64,000 nucleotides of DNA from Oscillospiraceae bacterium (lineage in GTDB: Bacteria > Bacillota > Clostridia > Oscillospirales > Ruminococcaceae), in contig JAFRTG010000047.1 of assembly GCA_017427265.1 (NCBI GenBank), forward strand, positions 1 to 64,000, read 5' to 3'. Below, piece after piece: positions 11,380 to 31,771 of this stretch; positions within the stretch are counted from its first letter, which is position 1, and each line of letters opens with the position of its first letter. The position numbers were made by a program, and so were the translations under genes. Below the pieces are notes generated by a model. The model saw nothing but the letters and a program-made list of their open reading frames with translations, did not search any database and was not told the DNA's origin.

Positions 11380-12387
11380 TTAGCAGATGCGGGGGAGAAG
11401 TTCGCCTTTTGGCTGCGGAAGTACCGTCTGTGTGCCGATTTCCGTTTCCATAATGACCTTGCCGGCATTCTCTGCAGTCACCGTTCCGATGATCGCCGCA
11501 TTTTGCGAGTATTTGCCTTCGCGCAGTTTTTCGACGATCGCTGCTGTGTGTTCCTGCGGCGCGAAGATCACCAGTCTGCCCTCACAGGCCAGATACAGCG
11601 GCTCCAGACCGAGCATCCCGCAGACGCCCTTCACTCGCGGATCGACCGGGACGCTCGCCGCATCCAGCCGGATGCCCACATTGCTCTGTCCTGCAATCTC
11701 GTAAAGCACTGTGCCCACGCCGCCGCGCGTTGCATCACGGATGACATGAATCTCGTCTGTTACCTCGTAGAGGCTTTCAACCGTGCCCCAGAGCGGCGCG
11801 CAGTCGCTGTCCACATCGGATTCAATGCCGAAATCGTTGCGCGCAATCAGAATCGTGCAGCCGTGCCGTCCGACGTCGCCGGTCACGATCACCGCATCAC
11901 CGGGCTTTGCAAATGTGCCGGATGTTTGTGCCTGCGGCATGATCTGGCCGATGCCGGTCGTCGTGATGAATACGCCGTCGCACTGACCTTTGCCTGCGAC
12001 TTTCGTATCACCCGCAACAATGCGCACGCCGACTTCTGCTGCCGTTTTTTCCATCGCAGCTGCGATTTCTTCGAGCGCGTCCATCGGGAAGCCCTCCTCA
12101 ATGACAAACGCGCAGGTCAGATAAAGCGGCTTTGCGCCCATGCAGGACAGGTCATTGACTGTGCCGCAGATCGACAGCTTGCCGATGTTGCCGCCGTTGA
12201 ACTTCCACGGCGAGACAATAAAGCCGTCGGTCGATGTTGCGATTTTTCCGCCGGGCTGCGGCAGAACCGCCGCATCGTCGCCTGTGAACATCGGGTTTGA
12301 AAAATGTGCCTTGAATACGCGGTCGATCAGTTCGTTTGTCTGTGTGCCGCCGGCGCCGTGTGCCAGCGTGACTGTTTGATTGCTCAT
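11380..12387 (-). CDS. hypE: HypE, hydrogenase maturation dehydratase
   Basis: Converts the carbamoyl group on its C-terminal Cys to thiocyanate, the source of the cyanide ligands of the Fe(CN)2CO unit. 335 residues with the AIR-synthase-like fold: LAHGAGGTQTNELI, FTGDDAAVLP, IVAGDTKVAGKG, RDATRGGVGT. It ends in ELLPRIC, retaining the essential last Cys. It is the most distal hyp gene of the minus-strand block and sits 24 bp after an acetyltransferase gene. hypA and hypB are not in the window. Confidence 0.95.
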   Translation of the reverse strand: MSNQTVTLAHGAGGTQTNELIDRVFKAHFSNPMFTGDDAAVLPQPGGKIATSTDGFIVSPWKFNGGNIGKLSICGTVNDLSCMGAKPLYLTCAFVIEEGFPMDALEEIAAAMEKTAAEVGVRIVAGDTKVAGKGQCDGVFITTTGIGQIMPQAQTSGTFAKPGDAVIVTGDVGRHGCTILIARNDFGIESDVDSDCAPLWGTVESLYEVTDEIHVIRDATRGGVGTVLYEIAGQSNVGIRLDAASVPVDPRVKGVCGMLGLEPLYLACEGRLVIFAPQEHTAAIVEKLREGKYSQNAAIIGTVTAENAGKVIMETEIGTQTVLPQPKGELLPRIC

Positions 12388-15530: not shown

Positions 15531-16574
15531 TTACGAATACTGATAATACGCGGCGCAGGCGCCCTCATCGGAGACCATGCAAGCGCCGACCGGATGCAGC
15601 GGCGTGCAGCCTTTGCCGAACACCTTGCAGTCGCACGGGCGAATCTTGCCCTGCAGGACATCGCCGCAGCGGCACGCCGGATTCGGCTTGCCCGTGATGA
15701 CCGGCATGTTATGCTTGATCCGTGCGTCGAAATCTGCGTATTCTGCGCGCAGCTTCATGCCGGAGCCCGGAATCATGCCGAGGCCGCGCCATTCGCTGTC
15801 ACAGGGCTCCATGACCGCGTTCATCAGCGCGATTGCTGCGGGATTGCCCTCGTCCTTCACCACACGCGGATAGCAGTTGCGGAAGAACGGCTCGCCCTGT
15901 TCCAGCAGTTTTATCGTTACAGCCAGCGCGGTCAGCAACTCGCTTGCCGTAAAGCCCGCCACGACGCCGGAAACGCCCTGCTCCTCGCAGAGCCGGATGC
16001 AGGTTTCGTTGCCGGTGATCGCATTGACATGCCCCGGATACAGAAATGCATCCGCGCTGCCGACCAATGCCTGATAGGCATTCGGCATGGTTTTATTCGC
16101 GGTCAGCAGCGAGAAGTTCGTAAGTCCTGCTTCCTTTGCCTGCTTGGCAGCCAGACATGCAGACGGCGTGGTCGTCTCAAAGCCGACCGCCAGAAATACA
16201 ACCTGCTTTTCCGGGTTTTCCTTTGCCAGTGTGACTGCATCCAGCGGCGAATAGACCGGCCGGATATCGCCGCCCTTTGCACGCGCGCCGGCAAGGCTCA
16301 TTTCGGTGCCGGGGACACGGATCAAATCACCGAATGTGCAGATGATGCACTGTTTTTCGAGCGCGAGCCAGATGGCCTCGTCGATGAAGCCGACGGCCGT
16401 CACACAGACCGGACATCCCGGCCCGGAGATCAGGTCGATCTGCGGCGGGAGCAGCTTTCTGAGGCCGATGCGGAAAATCTCATGCGTATGCGTGCCGCAG
16501 ACCTCCATGATGCGCAGCGGACGGCCGCTGTATGAGGTGATGATCTCTCTGGCACGCTTCATGCTTTCGTTCAC
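15531..16574 (-). CDS. hypD: HypD, Fe-S scaffold for Fe(CN)2CO assembly
   Basis: With HypC it forms the scaffold on which the Fe(CN)2CO unit is built. 347 residues with the invariant Cys in EVCGTHTHE (26), the redox pair in SGPGCPVCVT (54 and 57), and a C-terminal [4Fe-4S] set (RCGDVLQGKIRPCDCKVFG, then GC and GAC). All catalytic residues are present. Overlaps hypC by four bases, matching the HypC-HypD complex. Confidence 0.96.
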   Translation of the reverse strand: MNESMKRAREIITSYSGRPLRIMEVCGTHTHEIFRIGLRKLLPPQIDLISGPGCPVCVTAVGFIDEAIWLALEKQCIICTFGDLIRVPGTEMSLAGARAKGGDIRPVYSPLDAVTLAKENPEKQVVFLAVGFETTTPSACLAAKQAKEAGLTNFSLLTANKTMPNAYQALVGSADAFLYPGHVNAITGNETCIRLCEEQGVSGVVAGFTASELLTALAVTIKLLEQGEPFFRNCYPRVVKDEGNPAAIALMNAVMEPCDSEWRGLGMIPGSGMKLRAEYADFDARIKHNMPVITGKPNPACRCGDVLQGKIRPCDCKVFGKGCTPLHPVGACMVSDEGACAAYYQYS

Positions 16575-16780
16575 AGCAGTTCCTCCATGACCGTATCGGC
16601 CTCGTCAGCTTCGTCCGCCGTGATCTTTGCGATCGCAACGCCCGCGTGTACCATGACGAAATCGCCGGGCTCAAGGTCATCGAGCACACCGGCGCTGACG
16701 GCTCTCTGCGCGCCGCTTGCGTCAATCAGCGCGGTGCCGTCCTCAACCTTGACAACTCTTGCAGATAATCCAACACACAT
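16571..16780 (-). CDS. hypC: HypC, Fe carrier chaperone
   Basis: 69-residue OB-fold chaperone. It begins MCVGLSARVV, with the essential Cys2 that holds the iron, and has the LEPGDFVMVHAGVAIAKI end strand of the HypC/HupF family. Starts after a CGGAGG site. The 152 bp between this gene and hypF hold no gene; weak promoter-like TTGAAA/TATTCA boxes are the only thing I see there. Confidence 0.95.
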   Translation of the reverse strand: MCVGLSARVVKVEDGTALIDASGAQRAVSAGVLDDLEPGDFVMVHAGVAIAKITADEADEADTVMEELL

Positions 16781-16932: not shown

Positions 16933-19242
16933 TTATTGCGCAGCGATCCCGAAAAGCGCCTGCCCGATGCAAAGGCCGCCGTCGTTCGGGGGAATCAGGC
17001 TGTGCAGCAGGACGGTGAAGCCCGCCGCGGTCAGCTGTTCGTGACAGAGCCGCGTCAGCAGACGGTTCTGAAAGACGCCGCCGCTGAGTGCACATACCGA
17101 AAGACCGGTCTTTTCGCGGATTTTCATGCAGGCATCCCGCAGCATGACACTGAGCGCTGCATGGAACTGATATGCGAGAAAACGCTGATTTTCCGGCGTG
17201 CGCTCCGAAAGATACCGCTGCGTGATCTCTGCGGCGAGCGCCGTTGTGCAGAGCGTCAGGAAGCCGCTTTCTTCTGCGGTGCCTGTTGTCAGAATGCACG
17301 CAGAATCACCGTTTTCGGCGGCGTGTTGCTCTGCGGCATTCATCAGCGCGGATGCGGCTTCTCCCTCAAAGGTCGAGGACAGGCGGATGCCGAGAATCGC
17401 GGCAATCGCATCGAACAGTCTGCCGCAGCTCGTCGAGCGGACGCTGTTGACGCCCATGCGCGCCATATTGGTCTGCACCTTGTATTCCTGCGCGGTGCAG
17501 AGGCCGAGCGTTTCGCAGATTGCCTGCGCGCTTTCACCGTCTGCATCCCGCAGCAGCGCGGACGCAATGCGCCGCCCCTCTCTGGCGGAGAGGTCGCCGC
17601 CGGTCTGGATGAACGGCGTAATGCTGCCCGCGCGGATATATCCGGACGGGTCACAGAGCAGCAGCTCGCCGCCCCAGATTGTGCCGTCGTCGCCGTAGCC
17701 GGTGCCGTCCAGACTGATGCCGATGACGCGCTCCGTGACATTGTTTTCTGCCGTGCAGGAGAGCACATGCGCATAGTGATGCTGCACCTGAACCAGCGGA
17801 ATTCCGCGTTCCTGCGCAATTTCCTGCGCGGCTGTGACCGTATTGTACAGCGGGTGCGTATCACAGACGATCAGCTCCGGCTCTGCTTCCAGCAGACCGC
17901 ACATCCGGTCAACGGATTCGCGGAGCGCCTCTGCGGTGCGGATATCGGCCATATCCCCGATATAGGGCGAGGCATAGAGCAGGCCGCCCTTTGCGATGCA
18001 GAATGTATTTTTCAGCTCGCCGCCGATTGCCAGCACGGTTTTGTGCTGCTTGCGGTGAATCATAACGGGCAGCGGCGCAAATCCGCGGGAGCGCCGGATC
18101 ATGTACGGCTTTCCGAACAGCCAGTCGCAGACCGAATCGTCCGCGCGCAGACGGATTCTGCGGTCGTGCGAGAGCATGATATCGCAGAAGCCGCTGATCT
18201 CTTTGACTGCGTCCGCATCGTTCCGGCAGATCGGCGCGCCGTGCGCGTTGCCGCTTGTCATGACAAGGCAGTCCGTCATGGCGATGCCGTCGGGATAATC
18301 AAAGAGCAGCATCTGTACGGGCGCATACGGGAGCATGACGCCGACCGTCCGGTTATCCGGGGCGATTTCTTCGCAGATTGACATGTCTGCGCGCTTTTCA
18401 AGCAGCAATACCGGCTTCTGCCAGCCGGTCAGCATCTCCCGCTGACCGTCCGCAAGAACACATTCGCGTTCGGCGGAGTGCAGGTCGCGCATCATGACGG
18501 CAAACGGCTTCATCGGCCGGTGCTTCAGCATCCGCAGACGCTGAACTGCTTCCGGGTTTTTCGCATCGCAGCAGAGGTGAAATCCGCCGATGCCCTTGAC
18601 TGCGGCGATTCCGCCCTCCATGATTGTCCGCCGCACGGCCGTAATTGCCTCGCCGCCGCGGATATCCGTGCCGATCAGATACAGCGCCGGGCCGCAGTCA
18701 TTGCAGCAGTTCGGCTGCGCGTCGTAGCGTCTGGTCGCCGGGTCGTGATACTCCGCGGCGCAGTCCGGACACATCGGAAACACACGCATACTCGTGCGTT
18801 CCCGGTCGTAGGGCATTGCGTCGAGAATCGTCAGGCGCGGGCCGCACTGCGTACAGTTGATGAACGGGTGCAGATAACGCCGGTTCTGCGGGTCAAAGAG
18901 CTCTGCGCGGCATTGGTCGCAGGTCGCAATGTCAGGTGATACGAAGATATCGCCGTATTCCCGTTCGCTTTCGATGATTGAAAATGATTCATAGGATTCT
19001 GCCGTGTCCGGCGGAATCTCCTCGCTGTCCATGCCGAGGATCACGGCGCGGTCAGGCGGCGTATTGCGCACGGCTTCCGTGAAGCTGCGGAGCGCTTCGG
19101 GCGTGCCCTGCGCAAGAATCTCCACATAGGAGCCCTTGTTTGCAACGGTACCGCGGATGCCGAAGCGTTCGGCTGTCACGGCAGTAAACGGGCGGAAGCC
19201 GACACCCTGCACAATGCCGTAAACATGGATATTCAGTGTCAA
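16933..19242 (-). CDS. hypF: HypF, carbamoyltransferase
   Basis: Makes the carbamoyl-adenylate used for cyanide ligands. About 769 residues with all domains in order: acylphosphatase (HVYGIVQGVGFRPF), zinc fingers (CDQC, CTQC, CPDC, CNDC), the YrdC-like domain (IGGFHLCCDAKN), and the Kae1-like C-terminal domain (VQVQHHYAHVLSC; SLDGTGYGDDGTIWG; SGGVFQNRLL). The start is taken at a TTG (19240-19242) with AGAGAGGAGG upstream because the acylphosphatase domain begins there. It follows a hypothetical gene by 16 bp. Confidence 0.96.
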   Translation of the reverse strand: MTLNIHVYGIVQGVGFRPFTAVTAERFGIRGTVANKGSYVEILAQGTPEALRSFTEAVRNTPPDRAVILGMDSEEIPPDTAESYESFSIIESEREYGDIFVSPDIATCDQCRAELFDPQNRRYLHPFINCTQCGPRLTILDAMPYDRERTSMRVFPMCPDCAAEYHDPATRRYDAQPNCCNDCGPALYLIGTDIRGGEAITAVRRTIMEGGIAAVKGIGGFHLCCDAKNPEAVQRLRMLKHRPMKPFAVMMRDLHSAERECVLADGQREMLTGWQKPVLLLEKRADMSICEEIAPDNRTVGVMLPYAPVQMLLFDYPDGIAMTDCLVMTSGNAHGAPICRNDADAVKEISGFCDIMLSHDRRIRLRADDSVCDWLFGKPYMIRRSRGFAPLPVMIHRKQHKTVLAIGGELKNTFCIAKGGLLYASPYIGDMADIRTAEALRESVDRMCGLLEAEPELIVCDTHPLYNTVTAAQEIAQERGIPLVQVQHHYAHVLSCTAENNVTERVIGISLDGTGYGDDGTIWGGELLLCDPSGYIRAGSITPFIQTGGDLSAREGRRIASALLRDADGESAQAICETLGLCTAQEYKVQTNMARMGVNSVRSTSCGRLFDAIAAILGIRLSSTFEGEAASALMNAAEQHAAENGDSACILTTGTAEESGFLTLCTTALAAEITQRYLSERTPENQRFLAYQFHAALSVMLRDACMKIREKTGLSVCALSGGVFQNRLLTRLCHEQLTAAGFTVLLHSLIPPNDGGLCIGQALFGIAAQ

Positions 19243-19258
19243 GCAGGGAGCCTCCTCT

Positions 19259-19846
19259 CTAAATGATTGACCAGAGCGTGACGGCGGATTCGTAGGCGGC
19301 GGGGTCTGCATACGGCAGATCATGGTGCAGCCATACAAGCCGGAACCGGATTTCTTTTTCAGTGCGATCCAGCAGCCGGAACTGATAACCGCTCCAGTCT
19401 GGTAACGGAATCAGGACGTATCTGCTGAATTTTGATTCGTCGTACTGCGCCGGCGGCTTCAGGCCGATCCGCACGCCGCCCTGTATGACCGGAACAGCCT
19501 GCCGGTCCTTTTCGGCATCATTGGGGTCCGCGGCACCGAGACTCAGCGTATAGCCGCCGCAGGTTGTCACATTTGCAACGGCGTATTCGTCGCTGTCGCC
19601 GTAGGTGAAATGTGCCGCACCGCAGAGCCGCAGCGTATACACCATGCCGGGTGTCAGCGCGGCGGTATCTATGCTGACCGTGTACTGATCCTGCGCCGTG
19701 AACGGGACATTCCGCTGCGCAATATCGTCCCAAATTTCTGCGCGGTACGGCAGAATCTCCTGCCGGATGCAGAAGGGCACCGGATGCCCCGCGGAATCGG
19801 TCAGCCGCAGAACGCCGCACGGCGTTTCAAATTCCGTCACAGCCAT
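19259..19846 (-). CDS. Hypothetical beta-rich protein
   Basis: 195 residues with no signal peptide and a high content of predicted strands (YTLRLCGAAHFTYGDSDEY, VLIPLPDWSGYQFRLL). It overlaps the upstream acetyltransferase gene by 10 bp and precedes hypF by 16 bp, so it is firmly embedded in the block. I do not recognise the family. Confidence 0.6.
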   Translation of the reverse strand: MAVTEFETPCGVLRLTDSAGHPVPFCIRQEILPYRAEIWDDIAQRNVPFTAQDQYTVSIDTAALTPGMVYTLRLCGAAHFTYGDSDEYAVANVTTCGGYTLSLGAADPNDAEKDRQAVPVIQGGVRIGLKPPAQYDESKFSRYVLIPLPDWSGYQFRLLDRTEKEIRFRLVWLHHDLPYADPAAYESAVTLWSII

Positions 19847-20271
19847 TGGTTGAACGCCGTTTTGTCCGCACTGCTGTAGCCCGCACGTTCGTAGAACCGC
19901 AGGGTGCTTTCCAGCTTTGAGCCGGTCATCAGCATCATTTTATAGCAGTTTTCCCGCAGTGCGATCTGTTTTGCGTAATCAAGACATGCCGTTGCGAGCC
20001 CGCGGCCGCGGTAATCGGCGTGCGTCACGACGTTTTCAATCAGCGCATAGGGGCGCAGATCATGCGTCAGATTCGGCACGATCACGCAGACGCAGGACGA
20101 AACGATTCTGCCGTCCTCCTCCGCGACGATGATATGATAATCGGGGTCGCTGAGAATCCGGTCGCGGAGCGCATCCCGGCGGGGGCTGCTTTCCGGAACT
20201 GATTTTTCATGCAGATGCGTGTATAATTGCAGGAGGCTTTCAAAATCCTGCGCCTGAAGTTCCCGAATCAT
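19837..20271 (-). CDS. GNAT acetyltransferase
   Basis: 144 residues. Acetyl-CoA motif THADYRGRGLATACLDYA and the end pattern RFYERAGYSS are clear. It starts 3 bp after the component-1-like gene, so it belongs to the same transcript. Such enzymes often acetylate small molecules or proteins; the substrate is not known. Confidence 0.85.
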   Translation of the reverse strand: MIRELQAQDFESLLQLYTHLHEKSVPESSPRRDALRDRILSDPDYHIIVAEEDGRIVSSCVCVIVPNLTHDLRPYALIENVVTHADYRGRGLATACLDYAKQIALRENCYKMMLMTGSKLESTLRFYERAGYSSADKTAFNQWL

Positions 20272-20274
20272 AGC

Positions 20275-21303
20275 TTACTCCTTTGCTGAGCCGGATACCG
20301 CATAATGCGGAAAATCCATCCATTCGCCGGTGAATCCCGGCACCGCACGCCGCAGCATATTGTCGGCGATGATGACGTCATATTCTGCGGCGGCCCTGCG
20401 CAGATCTGCTTCTGCGGAGATGCGGAAATCGCCGTCCTGCGCATAGCGGCTGTCCTGCATGAACCATGTCGCGCAGGTGACTTCGCAGCCTGTGATGCGT
20501 TCGCGCAGTGCGTTGGCCGCAAACTGCTGGTGCACGATCAGAACACGTTTGCCGGAAAGCGCCGCAGCCTTTGCCGTCAGGCCGTCCGGCAGAACCGGAT
20601 AACCGACCGAAAACGGGGTTCCGAAGGTGTCGCGCAGATATTCCGCCGCCTTGAGTCCGGCCGGTGAAATGACAAGAATCTGCTCGCATTCCGATGCGCT
20701 GCGGATTGCATCGAGACCGCTGTCCATGCCAAAGCAGACGACCTCGTTCCAGCCCTGCTGCCGCAGCGCTGCGATGATGCTGTCTGCGCGTGTCAGACCG
20801 GTCTCAAGCGGCGTTGCACCGAGTACGCCGAGCGTTCCTGCTCTGACAGGCAGCTGCTCTTTTGCAAATTCGCGGAACAGCCGCACATAGGCGAGACTTT
20901 CCCCGAAGTCACAGAGCCTTGTGCCGTCTGTCTCTGTTACGATGCAGGGCAGACCGGTTTTCTTTTCGGCCATGCGCTTCAATGCCTGAAAATCAGTTGC
21001 GATGACCGCAGGCACCGGCGTCCCGACGATCGCCGTAAAGGCCGCGGGAATCTGCTCCGTGATCTGTGCGAGCTTTTCGATCAGCAGCTTGTCGTGGCCG
21101 AGAATCGCGTCCATATCGCGCAGCCCCGCACTGAACAAAGCCGAGCGCTTTTCGTGCCAGCGGGGTTCGTCGAAGCCGCAGACATTGCCTGCGCAGCCGC
21201 CGGCATCGCAGATGACCGTGATGCCGCCCAGCTCGTAAAAGACCGCACATGCGCCGGAATCATCGGGCGCGAGCGGCGAAAGATGTGTCAGCAGACTGCT
21301 CAT
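20275..21303 (-). CDS. Nitrogenase component-1-like subunit, beta-like, set 2
   Basis: 342-residue homolog of the 382-residue subunit encoded at 23852-25000. Both share GAC..xYELGG, a GC near residue 37, FDEPRW and DAILG. In NifD/NifK-type folds these Cys bind a bridging Fe-S cluster. Here Cys19 and Cys37 are kept, but the third ligand position is changed (IVGTP instead of VCGSP), and extra Cys32 and Cys42 appear. This suggests a different cluster or a non-catalytic partner. It overlaps the alpha-like gene by four bases. It is too short and too diverged to be NifK, and no FeMo-cofactor genes are present. Function unknown. Confidence 0.85.
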   Translation of the reverse strand: MSSLLTHLSPLAPDDSGACAVFYELGGITVICDAGGCAGNVCGFDEPRWHEKRSALFSAGLRDMDAILGHDKLLIEKLAQITEQIPAAFTAIVGTPVPAVIATDFQALKRMAEKKTGLPCIVTETDGTRLCDFGESLAYVRLFREFAKEQLPVRAGTLGVLGATPLETGLTRADSIIAALRQQGWNEVVCFGMDSGLDAIRSASECEQILVISPAGLKAAEYLRDTFGTPFSVGYPVLPDGLTAKAAALSGKRVLIVHQQFAANALRERITGCEVTCATWFMQDSRYAQDGDFRISAEADLRRAAAEYDVIIADNMLRRAVPGFTGEWMDFPHYAVSGSAKE

Positions 21304-22589
21304 GATGTCACCCCCTGCAGTGCCGCTTCGAGCTGTTCAAACAGGAGCGTCACGCCGCGGTAGCCGAACGGCTGCGCCTCCTCCTGAAAGCCGATGCCCG
21401 GCAGATCTCTGTGATAATACATCGCGTCGTTTCCGATGACCGCGTCAAGCTCACATGTGCGCCGGTAATTGAGCATGGTCGGCGACAGATTCGAGTAAAT
21501 GCGCGTTTCCGGCGAAATCTCCGCGAGCTTTTTGATAAAGACAAAGTTGCGCTCTCCGACGGTGCCGTAAATCTCCGGCACGGAGAAGCCGTATTCGGTC
21601 AGGGCGAGCGCAAGCTCAAAGCTGTCTGCGTTGAGGCATTCCCCGACTGCAATGCGCAGCCCGCCGAATCTGTCCTGTACGCGCTCAACGGCTTCCAGCG
21701 CGGTCTGATAACAGTCCGTGTCATCGAACTGCACGCCGAGCGCCTGTCCGAGCAGACGGTACTGATTGCGGATCTTGTCGAGCCGGTAAAGCCGCGTCAG
21801 CTCAATGAACGGAATGCCGAGCCGCTCCTGCATATCCTGTGCGGCAAACCGCGATTCCGCATTGAGCACGAGGTTGAAATTTGCTTTGGAAAGCGCCTGG
21901 TATTCAGCGAAGGTTTGACAGCGGCCGAGCTCGCCGATCGTTTTGATGCCCGCCGATTTCAGCAGCGGATAGATCTCGCAGCCGTCCTCCAGCGCGGAGA
22001 AAAAGCCGAGCAGATTGCAGGCCGTGGAAACGCGCTTCTGCTTTTCCAGCAGCGAATACACCGATTTGCGCACCAGCGCCATCGGCGGCAGTCGTTTTTC
22101 GCGCGTCAGTGCGTACATATATGCCGGAACAGCCGGGATGCCGGTTTTCTCGGTACAGGCGCGGCAGACGCGCTCCATGTCCGTGCCGAGCAGCGCATCG
22201 ACACAGGTGATGCAGATTGCAATCGCAGAGGGCTGTGTTTGACATTCTCCGAGCAGCTCCTCGCAGGCCTGCGGGATTTTTTTGAGATAACGCCCCGTGA
22301 CGATATCGGTATCGTCGAGCATCAGATAGAAAAAGCGTTCGCTGTAGCCGAGCTCGTTGAGCAGCGCGGTATTGCGGCCGCAGCAGCCCGGCGCGACCAG
22401 CAGCATCACGGAGCCCGGAATCGCAAGCCCCGCACGCTTGACGCCGAAGCCCTTGGCGCCCGGCGAGTTGTAATCAAGCGTCGCCGGCGAGCTGTAGATC
22501 ATGTGCTTTGCCGAATTGAGCTCCGGCGGCAGATTTTCAAAGCCGCGGGCAGTCAGCTCCGCCGCGGTGATGGAATATGCGTTATTCAA
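21300..22589 (-). CDS. Nitrogenase component-1-like subunit, alpha-like, set 2
   Basis: 429 residues of the nitrogenase component 1 oxidoreductase fold. Features: an IPGSVMLLVAPGCCGR loop with adjacent Cys69-Cys70, LDDTDIVTGRY (the E/D-x-D-I-V-x-G motif of NifD/E relatives), and ICITCVDALLGTD with Cys126 and Cys129. It resembles the set 1 subunit at 25016-26326 in spacing (YN.P, IPG, D.x.G, C.....G.D), so the two sets look like a duplicated cassette. It overlaps the flavin-type gene by 8 bp and the beta-like gene by 4 bp. Substrate unknown. Confidence 0.87.
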   Translation of the reverse strand: MNNAYSITAAELTARGFENLPPELNSAKHMIYSSPATLDYNSPGAKGFGVKRAGLAIPGSVMLLVAPGCCGRNTALLNELGYSERFFYLMLDDTDIVTGRYLKKIPQACEELLGECQTQPSAIAICITCVDALLGTDMERVCRACTEKTGIPAVPAYMYALTREKRLPPMALVRKSVYSLLEKQKRVSTACNLLGFFSALEDGCEIYPLLKSAGIKTIGELGRCQTFAEYQALSKANFNLVLNAESRFAAQDMQERLGIPFIELTRLYRLDKIRNQYRLLGQALGVQFDDTDCYQTALEAVERVQDRFGGLRIAVGECLNADSFELALALTEYGFSVPEIYGTVGERNFVFIKKLAEISPETRIYSNLSPTMLNYRRTCELDAVIGNDAMYYHRDLPGIGFQEEAQPFGYRGVTLLFEQLEAALQGVTS

Positions 22590-23067
22590 ATTTCTTCACC
22601 TGTTTCGCCTTGCAGGACAGCGTTTCCGCATCGAGCCGGAACACGGCTGTTTTGTTCGCTGCTTCTGCACGGAATGTCCATTCTTCTTTTCCGGTTGCCT
22701 GCCGCATCAGGCAGCGCAGACCGGCCATCCGCTCCGCTTCATCTGTCACGATGCTGACGCGGCCTGTGCCGGTCACGCTCTGATAGGCCGCCGAATGCCC
22801 GCAGGCGTCCTCCGCGGAAAGCAGCGCGTAATTGCCGTCGATCTCAAAGCCGACGGACGGATTCAGCAGACTGAGCGTATATTTTCGCCCGGCCGCTGCA
22901 CCGTGAAAATAGAACCGGCAGCTGCCGTTTTCGCAGCAGACGCCGTAATTGACGGGCACAATATAGATTTCGCCGTGATCGTAAAACGCAATGCGGATGA
23001 TCTGTTCCTGTTCCAGAAAGGCAGCGATCTGTGCTGCATCGGTAATCTCTCTGTCTGATCTTCTCAT
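22582..23067 (-). CDS. Pyridoxamine 5'-phosphate oxidase-like flavin protein (NimA-like)
   Basis: 161-residue split-barrel protein of the PNPOx/NimA-like group, which bind FMN, heme or F420-type cofactors. Pattern: [43 protein letters not shown], and a central [12 protein letters not shown]. It is inserted between a NifH-like gene and its component-1-like partner genes with overlaps on both sides (4 and 8 bp), so tight co-expression is certain from layout. Whether it delivers electrons, a flavin product or detoxification is not known. Confidence 0.82.
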
Positions 23068-23825
23068 GCTTTCTCCTCCTCGGCAATCAACAGGTCAGCG
23101 AGCGCAAAGAACCGCTTTGCGGTTTCGCATTCCGGGTCGCCCTCAATGACGGTTTTCCCCATATCTTCGTACTTTGTGATATCATCCGAGCGCGGGATAT
23201 CCGCGGTAATCGCAAGCCCTGCGGATTCCGCAAAGGCGCGGACCTTCTGCTCCTCATCGGTGACATTCCGGCGGTTGAGAATCAGGCCGCGTACCTTGGC
23301 ATAGCTGCGGTCCTCAAAGTTTTTCACCGCATTGTTGATGTTGTTTGCGGCATAGAGCGCCATTTTTTCGCCGGAGGTGACGATCAGCACCTGCTCTGCA
23401 TAGCCCTCCCGGATCGGCGCGGCAAATCCGCCGCAGACGACGTCACCGAGCACGTCGTAGAGCACGACATCCGGCTGAAAGCGGTCAAAAAGCCGCAGCT
23501 CCTGCAGCAGGCTGAAGGTCGTGATGATGCCGCGTCCTGCACAGCCGAGTCCCGGTGTCGGGCCGCCGGTTTCGATGCAGAGCACCCCGCCGAAGCCGGT
23601 CTGCGAGATCTGCTCCGGCCGGTCGGGCTCGTCGTCGTGATCGCGCATCCAGTCCATGACCGGCGTGACCGGTGTGCCGCCGAGCAGATTGATCGTCGAA
23701 TCGGCCTTTGGGTCACAGCCGATCTGGATGACCCTTTTGCCGCGCATCGCAAATGCTGCCGCGAGATTCGCCGTGCAGGTCGATTTGCCGATGCCGCCTT
23801 TTCCGTAAATTGCCAGTTTTATCAT
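23064..23825 (-). CDS. NifH-like ATPase reductase, set 2
   Basis: 253-residue Fe protein homolog: ATP-driven electron donor to a component-1-like partner. P-loop [10 protein letters not shown] (residues 7-16), GCDPKADST switch (36-44), and both [4Fe-4S] ligands in [10 protein letters not shown] (Cys95) and LGDVVCGGF (Cys131). All key residues of NifH/BchL/CfbC are intact, so it should be a working reductase. It follows the set 1 beta-like gene by 26 bp and overlaps the flavin-type gene by 4 bp. It is one of two such reductases in the block. Confidence 0.93.
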
Positions 23826-23851
23826 ATCAAGTTTCCTTTTCGGTATTCCGT

Positions 23852-25000
23852 TCAGAGGTCTGCCGCCCAGGCGTCAAAGCGCGCTGCGGTCAGATCCGGT
23901 ATGATCTTGTCAAAGCACCTGCCGGAAAAGGCATAGTGCGGCAGCTCGATGTGCCGCGTGCCATTCGGCAGAATGAAGCGGTAAAACGGGTCCGCGATGA
24001 CGGCATCCGGCTGCATGTCAGCAAGTGCGGATTCGATTTCGTCCTCCGCAAATACATCGGAATCGGCCGCGCCGAGCATCTCCTCATGATGCGGCAGCGG
24101 GCAGATTACATTTGCCGCAAAGCCGGTCAGACTCAGCTGCGCGGCGATCGAGCCCGCAGAGACCGCCTCTCCGATGACCGTGATCTTTTTTCCCGCTGTG
24201 CCGCGCAGGGCGCAGGGATAAGCATGGGCTCCGGTCTCGGCGCTCTGCCGCAGCGATGCCGCAAGCTGTGCGGAAAAAGCTGCGCCGTAAGGGACGCCGC
24301 AGACATACGGGATTCCGAAGCGTTCATACAGATATTCCGCGGCGGCAAATCCGCATTCGGAAAGCACCAGACTGACCGACGCTTCCGCAGCCTGCGCCAG
24401 CGTTTCCGGCGTATCGCCCATTGCAAAGCAGGACACAACGGAAAAGCCCGCTTCCTGCAGCCAGGCGCGGATATGCGGAACCGTCTGAAGATTGCCGAAA
24501 TCCAGCGGGGTCGCACCGAGCAGATTGACGCCGTTCGGGCGCTTTTGCGCAGCGGGCTGCACGAACAGCTCTGCCGCTGCACGCAGGGCTTCTGACGCGC
24601 CTTCCGGATAGGAATGCATACCGTTGGTGTGAAGCGCAACGGTCCGTATGCCGGTGCGCTGTCCGATTTCGGCAGCGACCGCATCGAAATCCACGCCGAT
24701 CATCATGGGCATGGGAGAGCCGCAGACCGCAATGAACCGCGGGTTCTGATCGGCGGCGGCAGCGGCGGTATCCGCGATGAGCTTTTCGTCGTTGCCGAGA
24801 ATCGCGTCCAGCTCCGTCAGCGCGGAGATATAGGTCATGGACTGCTTGTCCCACCAGCGCGGCTCATCGAACGTGGCATAGGTCGAATTGCAGCCGGATG
24901 CATCGTGCACGACGGTCAGACCGCCCAGCTCATAGAGCGCGGAGCAGGCGCCGGCGGTATCGGCTGCATAGCAGGGAATGATTTTTGCAGTATGCTTCAT
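23852..25000 (-). CDS. Nitrogenase component-1-like subunit, beta-like, set 1
   Basis: 382 residues. Three Cys at positions expected for the shared Fe-S cluster are present: Cys19 ([13 protein letters not shown]), Cys37 ([10 protein letters not shown]) and Cys93 ([12 protein letters not shown]). [16 protein letters not shown] and [11 protein letters not shown] match the NifK-like region between the second and third ligand. No FeMo-cofactor His/Cys context is seen, so it is closer in kind to nitrogenase-like reductases than to true nitrogenase. It lies 15 bp after the alpha-like gene. Function unknown. Confidence 0.87.
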
Positions 25001-25015
25001 GCAGATGCTCCCTTC

Positions 25016-26326
25016 TCACAGCAGACAGGATGCGCAGCCGAAGCCCTTGTGCCGCAGCAGTGCGCGGCGGTCCTTCGGGGTGCGGCAGGCATCCGCTGCA
25101 AGCGCTGCGATCGCGCGGATGCCGGAAAACCCGTAATATCCGCCGTTGAGGATCAGGTTGACAAAGTGATCGGATGCAAAGTAATAGGCGGCCTTCTGCC
25201 CGAATGCGAGCAGCGGCTCTGCTGCATCGGTATGATGGTGCAGCATATTGACATTCGCAGGCGCAAGGATCATCAGCGCGGGAAAGTTCTGCTGCAGCCA
25301 TCCAAAGGCAGCGGATTCCTCTCCGACTGTATCCGCAATGAGATATTTCACATTGATGCCATGCTTCAGAAGCAGCACTGCCAGCGAAAACGGCCGCGAG
25401 ACAAAGGTATAGTCAATCGCAGCGGGCATGTTGCCGAGGGTCTGCTTGAGCGCATCAAGCGCAGCATCCGCAGCGGCAATGTCCGCAGAAAAATCGGGGC
25501 AGGGGATGCCGAGTGCATCACAGAGCGTCTGATAATGCGCCGTGATTTCATCATAGTCAAAGCTGTTCGGCAGATAGAGCGACGGCGTGTCAAAGCGCTC
25601 CGTCAGCAGCTCTGCCGCGCCGGAGGCCGTCGGCAGATATGTGATGTTCAGCGAACATTCCGCGAGCTGCAGATATTCTTCATAGGTTTTGCAGAGCGTC
25701 AGATCACGCAGCGTAAAGCCTGCGCCGCGGATGATCTGCACGAGCTCGGAGCTTTCGTCGGTCGGTCGGTCGTTTCCGATGATGCCGACGGCCTTCGGAT
25801 TTTTCGGCAGCGGCTGCAGCGGCAGATACATCTGCCGGCAGGTCTGCACGACCGGCGGGAGCGTCTCCCGCATGGTCGGCGTCATATAGCAATCGACAAA
25901 GGTGATATCCGGAAAGCGTTCCGAGAGCGCTGCGATGACAGCGTCAAAGTCGCAGCCGGCAAACAGATGCATACAGCTGAGAAACAGCAGTACCACCGGC
26001 GGATGCTGCTCCAGCCTGTCAACGATTTCCGCAGTGCCGTCAATGAGGCTTTCCTCCAGCGTGCCGTTGAACATGTCCTCCTCGGTCAGTGAGATCCAGC
26101 TGAGGCGTTCGAGTGCGTTCATCTCCGCTGCTGTCAGAATGACACCGCGCAGACATCCCTGCGCACAGCCGTAGATCTGGTGCGCACCGGGAATCAGCAT
26201 GCCCATCTGCACAATGTTCCACATGCCGCGTGCAGGCGGATTGTATTCCAGTCCGGAGAGGAACAGACATTCAGGGTCGGCGTCTGCAATGCGGACAGAC
26301 GGCGGCTTTTTCAGATTCTTCTGCAT
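25016..26326 (-). CDS. Nitrogenase component-1-like subunit, alpha-like, set 1
   Basis: 436 residues. N-terminal Cys20; then IYGCAQGCLRGV with Cys54 and Cys58; then LSCMHLFAGCDFDAV with Cys118 and Cys125; TEEDMFNG replaces the E-x-D-I-V-x-G motif. The extreme C-terminus ends CASCLL, an unusual C-x-x-C tail. It starts 3 bp after the NifH-like gene and is followed by its beta-like partner, giving an H-alpha-beta order like nifHDK. No nifB, nifE or nifN is seen. Confidence 0.87.
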   Translation of the reverse strand: MQKNLKKPPSVRIADADPECLFLSGLEYNPPARGMWNIVQMGMLIPGAHQIYGCAQGCLRGVILTAAEMNALERLSWISLTEEDMFNGTLEESLIDGTAEIVDRLEQHPPVVLLFLSCMHLFAGCDFDAVIAALSERFPDITFVDCYMTPTMRETLPPVVQTCRQMYLPLQPLPKNPKAVGIIGNDRPTDESSELVQIIRGAGFTLRDLTLCKTYEEYLQLAECSLNITYLPTASGAAELLTERFDTPSLYLPNSFDYDEITAHYQTLCDALGIPCPDFSADIAAADAALDALKQTLGNMPAAIDYTFVSRPFSLAVLLLKHGINVKYLIADTVGEESAAFGWLQQNFPALMILAPANVNMLHHHTDAAEPLLAFGQKAAYYFASDHFVNLILNGGYYGFSGIRAIAALAADACRTPKDRRALLRHKGFGCASCLL

Positions 26327-26329
26327 ATT

Positions 26330-27085
26330 TTAACCTCCGCAGATCTGCAGCACGGTATCGGCCAGCGCCGAAAGCTGTGCGGCGGCTTGGGAGTCCGGGA
26401 ATGCATTGACAAACGGAACGCCCATGACATCGGCCTGCTGAATCTCCGCGCTGCGGTCGATCGCGCCGATGATGCGCGTGTCAAAATCCCTTGCGAGCGC
26501 TTCTGCTTCGGCATCCTCGTTCTCGACATTGCGGCGGTTCAGGATCAGGCCGCCGAGCGTGGCGTAGCCTCTGCCTTGAAAATTCTGCACGGCCATGCAG
26601 ATATTGCCCGCTGCATAGCGCGCCATTTTTTCGCCGGAGGTCACGACGAACACCTTGTCGGCGTAGCCCTTGCGCATCGGCATGGAAAAGCCGCCGCAGA
26701 CGACATCGCCCAGCACGTCGTAGATTACAATGTCCGGCTGATAGGTCTCATAGGCGCCGAGTCGCTTGAGCGTTTCCAGCGCATTGATGATGCCTCTGCC
26801 CGCGCAGCCGACGCCCGGCACCGGGCCGCCTGCCTCGACACAGATGACGCCGCTTTCCGATTCTGTCACAAGATCGGAAAGCACGATCTGCTTTCCCTTT
26901 TCACGTTCGAGCTGCAGCACTGTCGGGATGCGCGTGCCGCCGTGCAGCAGGGCAGTGGAATCCGCCTTCGGGTCGCAGCCGATCTGCATGACGCGAAGGC
27001 CTTTTTTTGCAAACGCTGCGGAAAGATTGCCGGAGATCGTGGATTTGCCGATCCCGCCTTTGCCGTAAACAGCGAGTTTGATCAT
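26330..27085 (-). CDS. NifH-like ATPase reductase, set 1
   Basis: 251 residues, start ATG 27083-27085 with AAAGGAG upstream; the frame is open further up but that stretch is leader RNA. P-loop [10 protein letters not shown] (7-16), GCDPKADST (36-44), [4Fe-4S] ligands Cys94 ([10 protein letters not shown]) and Cys130 (LGDVVCGGF). Very similar to the second reductase at 23064-23825. First gene after the conditional-looking terminator in the leader, so its expression is probably gated there. Confidence 0.93.
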
Positions 27086-27121
27086 AACGAATACTCCTTT
27101 CCGCCGCTCATGAGACCGGCG

Positions 27122-27270
27122 GTAAAATAAAAACACCCGACTTCTGACAGGACAGATGTCGGGCTGTACGTATCCCGCAGCACAGCAGGATACGGCATCC
27201 GCGGTATCGTACTTTTGCCGCAAGGCAGCGCCGCTGCGTTTTGGCATCAGAAGAAATGCGAAAGAATGAT
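27122..27270 (-). promoter_or_regulatory. Leader with alternative hairpins and intrinsic terminator before the nitrogenase-like genes
   Basis: Between the regulator gene and nifH-like set 1. On the minus strand CCCGAC (27158-27163) pairs with GTCGGG (27136-27141), with an inner CTG/CAG pairing, followed by the T-rich run TGTTTTTATTTT: a good intrinsic terminator. Upstream, bases 27188-27193 can pair either with 27170-27175 (GTATCC/GGATAC) or inside a small hairpin at 27188-27200, so alternative folds exist. Only about 36 bases separate the T-run from the nifH-like start, too few for a promoter, so read-through must be allowed under some condition. I recognise no known riboswitch class. Confidence 0.6.
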
Positions 27271-27525
27271 TCAGTTTTCAGGTGCCGGTGCATAGACCGT
27301 TTTGGCGCTGACGCCGCTGAGCCTGCCGATTCCGCCGGCGAGCCGGTTGATGACGTCCTGCGGCGCGTCAATGGCAATGTTGATGATGCTGATGCCCTTT
27401 GCGCGGTACGGGATGCCCATCCGGCCGATGATATACCGGTCATAATCGTGCAGCAGCGCGTTGATGTGTACGGCCGAGCTGCTTTCCTGCACAATGATCG
27501 CAATGACTGCGACTCTGGTTTCCAT
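27271..27525 (-). CDS. TM1266-family hydrogenase-system regulator-like protein
   Basis: 84-residue ferredoxin-like/ACT-type small protein ([68 protein letters not shown]). This pattern is that of the TM1266 family, usually found with [FeFe]-hydrogenase maturation genes and called a putative iron-only hydrogenase system regulator. Start at ATG 27523-27525, preceded by GGAAAGGA. It heads the nitrogenase-like block. Its mechanism is unknown. Confidence 0.85.
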
Positions 27526-30415: not shown

Positions 30416-31771
30416 CTATGACGATGCTTGGGCAGTCAGCAGGATGCGTTTGAGCAAAGTCAGATCGGCCGCATTGATGACAGTGTCACCGCTGAGATCG
30501 GCCTTGCCGTCGGGGAGCGATTCCTCACCGAGCAGATATTTGGTCAGCAGGGCTGCGTCTGCGGCATTGACCTGACCGTCGCTGTCAAGATCGCCGCGGA
30601 TCTCTGCGGGGGACTGCGGCTGATACGCTTTGCCGCCAATCGCAAAGAGCTTTTTTTGCAGCTCGCGGTCGGTGAGCTGACAGGCCTCGCGGTCATAATG
30701 TCCGCCGGGTGTTGACCACAGTACCGGACAATGTCCGCATTTGTAAGCCTCCTCGCAGACGGAAGAGATAAACCGCCGCACGGATTCCGGTTCCTTGTTT
30801 TTAGTCGGGCAGCCGTATTCTCCGATGATGACCGGGATGCCCTTGTCCGTGAAGTTTGTTTTCATCATCTGCATTTCCTTGCGCAGGGATGCGTATTCCT
30901 CGTCGCTGCCCCATGTCGGGGAAGCCTTGCCCCAGTCCGCATCTTCTTCGAGAATCGCAAATCCGGCAGGGGAATAATAATGCACGGAAACCGCCATGCG
31001 GTTTGCGGGGTCAGAGGGCATCTGGAACAGCGGGTCGCAGGTGCGGTCGATGCCGGTGTTGTAGCCGGAAATCAGCAGATGCCGCTTCGGGTTATTGCCG
31101 CCCGATTTCCGGATCGTATCGACAAAGGCCTGATTGATCTCGCAGCAGAGCTGATAGGCCTCTGCCTTGCCCGCGGTACCGCCCCACGGGTTCCAGACGG
31201 TCTCCCAGCCGAGTTCCTCGTTCTGGGATTCAAACATGAGGCGGTCGCCGTAATGCTTGAAGCTGTCCGCGATCTGCTCCCACATGTGCGTAAAACGCTT
31301 CATGCTTTCGTCCCTGTTTTTCGGGAAATCATTGACCCAGCCGCCGTCCCAGTGAATATTGATGATCGCGTACATGCCGCAGTCAAGCGTCATATCCACG
31401 ATCTCGTGCACGCGGGCGTCATAGGCTGCATTGATCGTGTAGGTGCCGTCCTGTTCCATCATGTTTGACCACGCGACCGGGATGCGCAGGACACCGAAGC
31501 CCTCCTTCGCAATGCCCTCGATGATCTCTTTGGTGATGACGGGACTGCCCCATGCGGTTTCGTAGTCCTTCGCCTGACCGGAGCCGTATTCCGCGATCCA
31601 GTCGCCGCAGGCCTCAAGCGTATTGCCCAGATTGATGCCGATGCCCATATCGTGCACCAGCTCTGCTGTGGAGATATCCCGCATCTCCGGTTCGGCGGAG
31701 ACGGGAAAGATGCAGCAGCCGAAGCACAGAACTGCTGCGGTCAGTGCGGAAATCCGCCCTGTATGATTCAT
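30416..31771 (-). CDS. GH5 cellulase with C-terminal dockerin
   Basis: 451-residue secreted endoglucanase-like enzyme. Signal peptide about 1-26 (ends PVSAEP). Catalytic domain about 33-375: GINLGNTLEACG, RIPVAW, INIHWDGGW, acid/base Glu in FESQNEEL, and nucleophile Glu in IIGEYG, a pattern of the GH5 subfamily 4 kind. A dockerin follows (about 390-451) with two calcium loops, GDLDSDGQVNAAD and ADLSGDTVINAAD, which would attach it to a cellulosome scaffoldin. Hydrolyses beta-1,4-glucans (cellulose, xyloglucan or mixed-linkage glucan cannot be told apart). Confidence 0.93.
   Translation of the reverse strand: MNHTGRISALTAAVLCFGCCIFPVSAEPEMRDISTAELVHDMGIGINLGNTLEACGDWIAEYGSGQAKDYETAWGSPVITKEIIEGIAKEGFGVLRIPVAWSNMMEQDGTYTINAAYDARVHEIVDMTLDCGMYAIINIHWDGGWVNDFPKNRDESMKRFTHMWEQIADSFKHYGDRLMFESQNEELGWETVWNPWGGTAGKAEAYQLCCEINQAFVDTIRKSGGNNPKRHLLISGYNTGIDRTCDPLFQMPSDPANRMAVSVHYYSPAGFAILEEDADWGKASPTWGSDEEYASLRKEMQMMKTNFTDKGIPVIIGEYGCPTKNKEPESVRRFISSVCEEAYKCGHCPVLWSTPGGHYDREACQLTDRELQKKLFAIGGKAYQPQSPAEIRGDLDSDGQVNAADAALLTKYLLGEESLPDGKADLSGDTVINAADLTLLKRILLTAQASS

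Follow-up and report, generated by a model that had tools for sequence, protein, structure and literature searches.

A gene block built around two nitrogenase-like enzyme sets very likely replaces HydG functionally in the assembly of the H-cluster, the metal site of [FeFe] hydrogenase, as judged from sequence data, and its carriers probably build this site by a route that has not yet been characterized. HydG is conventionally regarded as providing the carbon monoxide (CO) and cyanide (CN−) ligands of [FeFe] hydrogenase; in the standard pathway, it splits tyrosine to provide both ligands on iron. The block lies in a stretch from an Oscillospiraceae bacterium (assembly GCA_017427265.1, contig JAFRTG010000047.1, positions 1 to 64,000), referred to here as the window, and feature coordinates are those of this 64-kb window unless another sequence is named. 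It encodes a TM1266-like putative regulator, two sets of a NifH-like reductase with a pair of component-1-like subunits (H1, D1, and K1 in set 1 and H2, D2, and K2 in set 2), and HypF, HypC, HypD, and HypE. An initial annotation had described the two sets as a cassette with no cofactor genes and had concluded that it might be a reductase with an unknown substrate. The first statement is wrong, because the four Hyp genes, which are metal-cofactor genes, start less than 1 kb past the end of K2, where the range of that annotation stopped, and on the same strand. Together with the frequent presence of HydE and HydF in the block and the lack of HydG in every carrier tested, they point to [FeFe]-hydrogenase cofactor assembly, and an unknown substrate is not supported as the final word.

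The evidence for this comes from the distribution of the block. A single sample of 197 genomes from the family was used in the searches for D1, HypD, [NiFe] hydrogenase, HydG (TIGR03955 over its cut-off), HydF, and [FeFe] hydrogenase (PF02906), and 42 chosen genomes of this sample were searched for HydE. D1 matched 19 of the 197 genomes at an E value of 1e-3, and 16 were counted as carriers; the other three (G091, G116, and G179), with a best D1 match at E values of 3e-6 to 3e-10, hold a more distant nitrogenase-like type. HydG scored over its cut-off in 85 genomes and in none of the 16 carriers, all of which have HydF (105 of 197 genomes), HydE (20 of the 42 genomes searched), and [FeFe] hydrogenase. 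Among the 105 genomes with HydF, 82 have HydG and 23 do not, and 16 of these 23 are the carriers, whereas HydG is present in 82 of the 89 noncarriers with HydF. The probability that all 16 carriers would fall within the 23 is 7.8e-14 under a hypergeometric test that assumes independent genomes. Furthermore, HydG and the cassette replace one another within four genera: that of the window genome (G000 versus G108 and G188), g36 (G035 versus G143), g72 (G071 versus G162), and g94 (G093 versus G179). Because HydG has been lost, HydE and HydF have been kept, and the block has been gained, we propose that the block does the task of HydG, the provision of CO and CN− on iron.

The window genome itself (G000 in the family sample; 3.82 Mb, 99.3% complete) encodes an [FeFe] hydrogenase (C18:402824-403684) in which two H-cluster motifs, MPCTAKK and ACPGGCVNGG, are of the classic form and TSCSPGW replaces the classic TSCCPAW in what we take to be the form of bifurcating hydrogenases. 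It has HydE (C18:387612-388622; 525 bits, cut-off of 255) and HydF (C33:56954-58114; 508 bits, cut-off of 326), and no HydG was found in it: the best HydG-family match (190 bits, cut-off of 312) is ThiH, which scores 515 bits with its own model.

Scanning bacterial and archaeal genomes with a D1 alignment gave 449 stretches encoding relatives, the best 80 of which are referred to here as the named loci. These come from Bacillota, Lentisphaerota, and Spirochaetota and include Ruminococcus albus (three strains), R. bicirculans 80/3, many Oscillospiraceae, Clostridiaceae, Lentisphaeria or Victivallales, and one Spirochaetaceae genome; five of them (L112, L114, L122, L129, and L131) are the family genomes G192, G065, G035, G071, and G158. 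Genome searches covered 50 of the 80 loci, of which L112, L114, and L131 are also among the 16 family carriers and 47 are further genomes. HydG was found in none of these 50 named carriers, and all 50 have [FeFe] hydrogenase (G232 with only 86 bits). We considered ThiH as a stand-in for HydG and rejected it, since HydG-family matches of at least 150 bits, the candidates for ThiH, occur in only 7 of the 16 family carriers and 23 of the 50 named carriers; five weaker HydG-family matches checked from both carrier sets were all ThiH by the ThiH cut-off. The block is present and HydG is lacking in the three R. albus strains; for a further strain, R. albus 7, H2 production by [FeFe] hydrogenases has been reported (PMC6776011). 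An active [FeFe] hydrogenase without HydG is thus close to being shown in R. albus, with the block and the H2 data coming from different strains.

The distribution of the Hyp genes ties them to the second nitrogenase-like set. The known product of HypF, HypE, HypC, and HypD is Fe(CN)2(CO), built from carbamoyl phosphate and a source of CO; in the window, all four genes are full-length and score over their NCBIfam cut-offs. Although these genes are of the [NiFe]-maturation type, no large subunit of a [NiFe] hydrogenase was found in the window genome, nor was one found in the other seven double-set genomes of the family sample or in 46 of the 50 named carriers. HypD occurs in 16 of the 197 genomes, 8 with [NiFe] hydrogenase and 8 without, and these last 8 are identical with the 8 genomes that have a second set, recognized by a second D1 match at 24 to 27% identity. 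The cassette HypDs from three phyla form one clade (support of 100/99), and position 6 of the cassette HypCs displayed is Ser or Ala and never Pro. The cassette genes thus resemble the HypCDEF part of [NiFe]-hydrogenase maturation in that all four are present over cut-off but differ from it in lacking a [NiFe] large subunit in the window genome, in a HypC without Pro6, and in a HypD clade of their own; we rejected ordinary [NiFe]-hydrogenase maturation as their function because none of the eight double-set genomes has a [NiFe] client.

A search for the same gene order, which the initial annotation had proposed as a check, found it kept over three phyla among the best 80 of the 449 stretches. 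The common order, on a single strand and incomplete in many loci, is TM1266-(HydF)-(HydE)-H1-D1-K1-H2-D2-K2-HypF-HypC-HypD-HypE. Loci were labeled by best BLAST hit with a query set that did not contain HypA or HypB, and genes were counted only at loci where the sequence extended far enough on the side concerned; some of the misses may be label, frame, or overlapping-open-reading-frame effects. A TM1266 gene stands upstream of D1 in all 46 loci with at least 5.5 kb upstream. HydF is part of the block in 31 of 52 loci and HydE in 49 of 62, and no locus carries a HydG label. The remaining members of set 1 were found in 62 of 75 (H1) and 68 of 72 loci (K1), those of set 2 in 63 of 68 (H2), 65 of 65 (D2), and 59 of 63 (K2), and the Hyp genes in 54 of 56 (HypF), 44 of 54 (HypC), 49 of 53 (HypD), and 38 of 49 (HypE). 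Five of the seven double-set relatives in the family sample (G065, G192, G113, G158, and G071) have the full order, with three extra open reading frames between HydF and HydE in G158; HydF lies elsewhere in G035 (C15), and the block of G177 is split over contigs. In the subclade of the window, HydE and HydF lie elsewhere in the genome, and genes for a flavoprotein, a GNAT acetyltransferase, and a 195-amino-acid protein have been added. These three are clade-specific accessories. The flavin-type gene, once counted as an element of the layout, is not part of its core, the label FLV having been given at no more than two of the 80 named loci (L097 and L101).

In the window, all genes of the block lie on the minus strand. 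The TM1266-like putative regulator of the iron-only hydrogenase system is the first gene (27271..27525; PF21699, 98 bits, cut-off of 27; TIGR03959, 102.8 bits, cut-off of 60.8), as had been reported. It is followed by set 1, comprising H1 (26330..27085; PF00142 [Fer4_NifH], 280.9 bits), D1 (25016..26326; PF00148 [Oxidored_nitro], 72 bits), and K1 (23852..25000; PF00148, 118.7 bits; alignments A2 and A7), and by set 2, comprising H2 (23064..23825; PF00142, 293.6 bits), D2 (21300..22589; PF00148, 103 bits), and K2 (20275..21303; PF00148, 52.6 bits; alignments A4 and A8). The earlier reading of two pairs of component-1-like subunits is thus borne out, with all four over the PF00148 cut-off of 28.6 bits, as is that of two NifH-like reductases with P-loops and both Fe-S cysteines; the motifs of H1 align with those of solved NifH chains, and those of H2 were read in the sequence. 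The pyridoxamine-phosphate-oxidase-like flavoprotein (22582..23067; PF12900 [Pyridox_ox_2], 72 bits, cut-off of 27) lies between H2 and D2, and the GNAT acetyltransferase (19837..20271; PF00583, 66.7 bits) and the 195-amino-acid protein (19259..19846), which matched no Pfam family at an E value of 0.01 and no NCBIfam family at 1e-5, follow K2. Beyond these lie HypF, the carbamoyltransferase for the first step of cyanide synthesis (16933..19338, start codon unsure; TIGR00143, 736 bits, cut-off of 466), HypC, of a dedicated subtype starting MCVGLS (16571..16780; TIGR00074, 58.3 bits, cut-off of 48), HypD, the scaffold for Fe(CN)2CO, of the cassette-specific clade (15531..16574; TIGR00075, 402 bits, cut-off of 193), and HypE (11380..12387; TIGR02124, 413 bits, cut-off of 252), the C-terminal PRIC tail of which is presumably the motif with the cyanide-carrying Cys. 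From H1 through the gene for the 195-amino-acid protein, neighboring genes overlap or sit no more than 30 bases apart; the gaps are larger between TM1266 and H1 (~185 bases) and between HypF and HypC (~150 bases), and several other genes lie between HypD and HypE. Of the one tight transcript described earlier, the close packing on one strand stands, and a single transcript is no more than suggested by that spacing.

Two other features of the window were observed away from the block. A CRISPR-like array with seven copies of a 36-nucleotide repeat, spaced at 66 to 69 nucleotides and with the last copy degenerate, lies at the window edge (1-446). A gene on the minus strand (30416-31771) encodes what, as read from the sequence, we take to be a secreted protein resembling endoglucanases, with a dockerin-like stretch at its end, which would fit a cellulolytic Ruminococcus-type host.

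The nitrogenase-like subunits fall outside the characterized families tested. The NifH model gave H1 and H2 291 and 300 bits (cut-off of 394), NifD-type alpha-subunit models gave 34 bits at best (cut-offs of 486 to 654), and the NifK model gave 20 bits (cut-off of 427); the nearest NCBIfam component-1 models were NifE (68 bits, cut-off of 505) and NifEN (70.5 bits, cut-off of 1229). The BchL (183 and 211 bits, cut-off of 345), BchX (181 and 192 bits, cut-off of 331), DPOR_BchB (59 bits at best, cut-off of 490), CfbC (296 and 294 bits, cut-off of 402), and CfbD (31 bits or less, cut-off of 268) models were likewise missed. The tree placement suggested in the initial annotation put D1 with D2 and K1 with K2 in clades of their own, apart from the Nif and BchYZ references, and H2 in a sister clade of H1. 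Invariant cysteines are Cys54, Cys58, and Cys118 in D1, which also has a low-confidence C-terminal tail with a conserved Cys, and Cys69, Cys70, Cys126, Cys129, and Cys224 in D2. When aligned, D1 and D2 have other residues or a gap in place of the FeMo-cofactor ligands of the alpha subunit (Cys275 and His442 in the numbering that we assume), and they resemble DPOR, NifEN, and nitrogenase subunits alike. The best PDB match of H1 is the Fe protein of methylthio-alkane reductase (9fmg_D, 225 bits), a family for which no model or tree reference was used, and PADLOC gave nothing for D1, K1, D2, or K2. No second NifDK or NifEN was found in the window genome, which has just four PF00148 matches at an E value of 1e-3, all in the cassette. 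The lack of FeMo-cofactor ligands in D1 and D2 and of further component-1 genes agrees with the earlier view that N2 fixation is unlikely; with the NifH, NifD, and NifK scores and the lack of a separate NifEN, it led us to reject an N2-fixing nitrogenase, and the scores under cut-off led us to reject membership of BchLNB/BchXYZ and of CfbCD. DPOR (BchLNB), COR (BchXYZ), CfbCD, methylthio-alkane reductase, and NifEN also differ from the cassette in gene context, in NCBIfam cut-offs that the cassette misses wherever a model exists, and in the separation of its clades from the Nif and BchXYZ references.

A possible course of assembly can be proposed from these families. HypF and HypE would make cyanide from carbamoyl phosphate, and HypC and HypD would assemble an Fe(CN)2(CO)-type unit. 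This unit would then be handed to H2-D2K2; the co-occurrence is observed, and the hand-over to set 2 is suggested because there is normally no [NiFe] client and, where [NiFe] hydrogenase is lacking, the genomes with HypD are precisely those with D2. Reduction of CO2 to CO is a known activity of nitrogenase Fe proteins and of vanadium nitrogenase. For set 1, which is common to all carriers, we suggest only tentatively, with rather more doubt than confidence, that H1-D1K1 would use ATP-driven low-potential electrons to produce a precursor that HydE accepts, approximately Fe(CO)2(CN), for example, through on-iron reduction of CO2 to CO or replacement of one cyanide ligand with CO. Because the halves of the H-cluster must be of the Fe(CO)2(CN) type, CO has to take the place of one cyanide and the iron has to be reduced, work suited to ATP-driven low-potential reductases. 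HydE and HydF, going by their families, would then complete the two-iron site and insert it in the usual way. The machineries of the Nif, Hyp, and Hyd types may thus form one tyrosine-free assembly line, in which HypCDEF would use carbamoyl phosphate and CO2 to give Fe(CN)x(CO) and CO would be loaded or exchanged on that iron by nitrogenase-family enzymes; this line would have spread between phyla as a block, an idea to which we give somewhat less than an even chance.

Several observations weigh against the replacement of HydG by the block. The genomes compared are related, so that the P values overstate the association. HydF is present without the cassette and without HydG over cut-off in seven genomes; of these, G049 and G173 hold HydG fragments and G016 is only 55% complete, while G043, G088, G116, and G175 are without explanation. 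A PF02906 protein occurs with neither HydF nor HydG in 84 of the 197 genomes, so that PF02906 alone is no proof of an H-cluster; HydE over cut-off was found in none of the 17 genomes lacking both HydF and HydG that were chosen for a HydE search (two of which, G002 and G003, also lack PF02906). Matches of [NiFe] type were found in 4 of the 50 named carriers, all short (the first 69 profile positions), and in the single-set carrier G022 (86% complete). Finally, HypD is missing from 8 of the 16 carriers, all of them with only one set. Hyp therefore cannot be essential to the core step, and cyanide must have another source in these genomes.

Unusual arrangements of the Hyd genes were also seen. 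The 0.9-Mb genome G087 has HydF and HydG over cut-off and no PF02906 match. In G043 (L179:7920-10114), HydF directly follows a HydE-like radical SAM gene that is under the HydE cut-off, with ABC-transporter-like genes, and a similar HydE-like gene with ABC-transporter-like genes is found in G116 (L183:7517-10839); this layout is possibly a third HydG-less arrangement.

As for the single-set carriers, ten neighboring proteins were scanned in five of them. A FecCD permease was found in G040, G093, and G063, a Peripla_BP_2 protein near the set in these three and in G032, and an ABC ATPase fused to a TM1266 domain near H1-D1-K1 in G040, G156, and G063 (L080:1770-2861, L084:11726-12784, and L085:13266-14321). 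The fusion ties an iron-type importer to hydrogenase maturation, and there are hints that an imported compound replaces set 2 and Hyp in these genomes. More distantly, the 424-kb plasmid pTS1 of Treponema saccharophilum carries a related single H-D-K set (L187:13232-19528; D ~30% identical) alongside an iron ABC transporter; the annotation of the 29-kb stretch around it shows neither Hyd nor Hyp genes. The distant H/D/K sets of G116, G091, and G179 (L089:8615-11148, L090:9146-11679, and L087:10595-13125), with ABC-transporter-like genes between or near them, form a separate clade and show no link with the loss of HydG, which is present in G179 and absent from G116 and G091.

These findings bear on other explanations of the block. 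The reductases might act in H-cluster biosynthesis or activation without making or loading CO or CN−, with the ligands supplied by HypCDEF or, in single-set carriers, by an imported compound; their step would then be another one, such as formation of the dithiomethylamine bridge or reductive activation of the hydrogenase at the expense of ATP, as with methyl-coenzyme M reductase, for which an ATP-driven activation complex has been reported (PMC12176620). In its favor, two reductase sets against one lost enzyme would allow for a further function, D2 and HypD go strictly together wherever [NiFe] hydrogenase is lacking, and D1 and D2, without FeMo-cofactor ligands, show similarity to DPOR, NifEN, and nitrogenase subunits alike. 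We nevertheless consider this explanation, for either step, unlikely, since set 1 occurs without HypD in eight HydG-less genomes, where some HydG-type task must be met. HydE and HydF acting alone with stray CO and CN−, cited in PMC9431212 as giving ~1% activation, were also considered; this would leave the conserved block unexplained.

More improbable still is a reductase for an unrelated small molecule that merely lies beside maturation genes, for example, through shared low-redox regulation by TM1266. No activity is known for the sets, and the T. saccharophilum plasmid set, with its iron-type transporter and no Hyd or Hyp genes annotated nearby, would suit such a reductase; however, the absence of HydG from 16 of 16 and 50 of 50 carriers (3 shared), the first 16 of which all keep HydE and HydF, would not be expected from co-location alone, and the four within-genus exchanges and an order kept over three phyla also argue against it. 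That HypCDEF serve an ordinary [NiFe] hydrogenase while the nitrogenase-like genes act in N2 fixation or in building a nitrogenase is what the gene names alone would suggest, and we give it hardly any credence, given the missing [NiFe] large subunit in all eight double-set genomes and 46 of the 50 named carriers and a window genome with four component-1 genes only and no FeMo-cofactor ligands.

Replacement of HydG by the block, which we prefer, can be set beside what is known of hydrogenase maturation. Canonical HydE-HydF-HydG maturation, in which CO and CN− derive from tyrosine (PMC3105041), is resembled by the carriers in that they keep HydE, HydF, the TM1266-like gene, and [FeFe] hydrogenase but differs in that they lack HydG and have two nitrogenase-like sets and HypFCDE in the block instead. 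A single sentence from 2012 noted NifHEN-like genes beside hydrogenase maturation genes and suggested a role in assembly of the active-site metallocluster (PMC3464626); these genes, as described there, probably belong to the same family as the cassette, and the passage itself is silent on HydG, Hyp genes, two sets, and a phylogenetic profile. The sections of a 2022 survey of eight Clostridium acetogens that concern maturation (PMC9431212) record HydE and HydF in all eight, no recognizable hydG in five, and HypC, HypD, HypE, and HypF in all, with HypA and HypB in only three, and leave this unexplained. By the locus tags given there, HypF, HypC, HypD, and HypE are direct neighbors, and a second HypCDE set is present in C. 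carboxidivorans. The acetogens thus share with the carriers a missing HydG and adjacent HypF-C-D-E but differ in having a group 1a [NiFe] hydrogenase, so that their Hyp genes are not strict orphans, and nitrogenase-like genes go unmentioned in those sections. We found no report of HydG replacement by nitrogenase-like genes in the open literature searched, a scope that largely excludes subscription papers and bioRxiv.

The nitrogenase family is known for reductases of N2, tetrapyrroles, and sulfur compounds, and NifEN is a scaffold for the nitrogenase cofactor. The chemistry proposed here, if confirmed, would be categorically new, while the system itself joins known kinds, hydrogenase maturation and nitrogenase-like enzymes, and it would offer new parts for hydrogenase production in other hosts. 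It may also explain the missing HydG and the HypCDEF without HypAB of the acetogens (PMC9431212). Cluster IV nifH amplicons related to Ruminococcus and Coprococcus are abundant in the human gut, as one study reports (PMC4995403), and some of these could mark hydrogenase maturation. A nitrogenase-type enzyme would gain a new job, building the metal site of another enzyme, and H-cluster biosynthesis would have a second solution in rumen and gut bacteria, among them R. albus, R. bicirculans, and many uncultured relatives.

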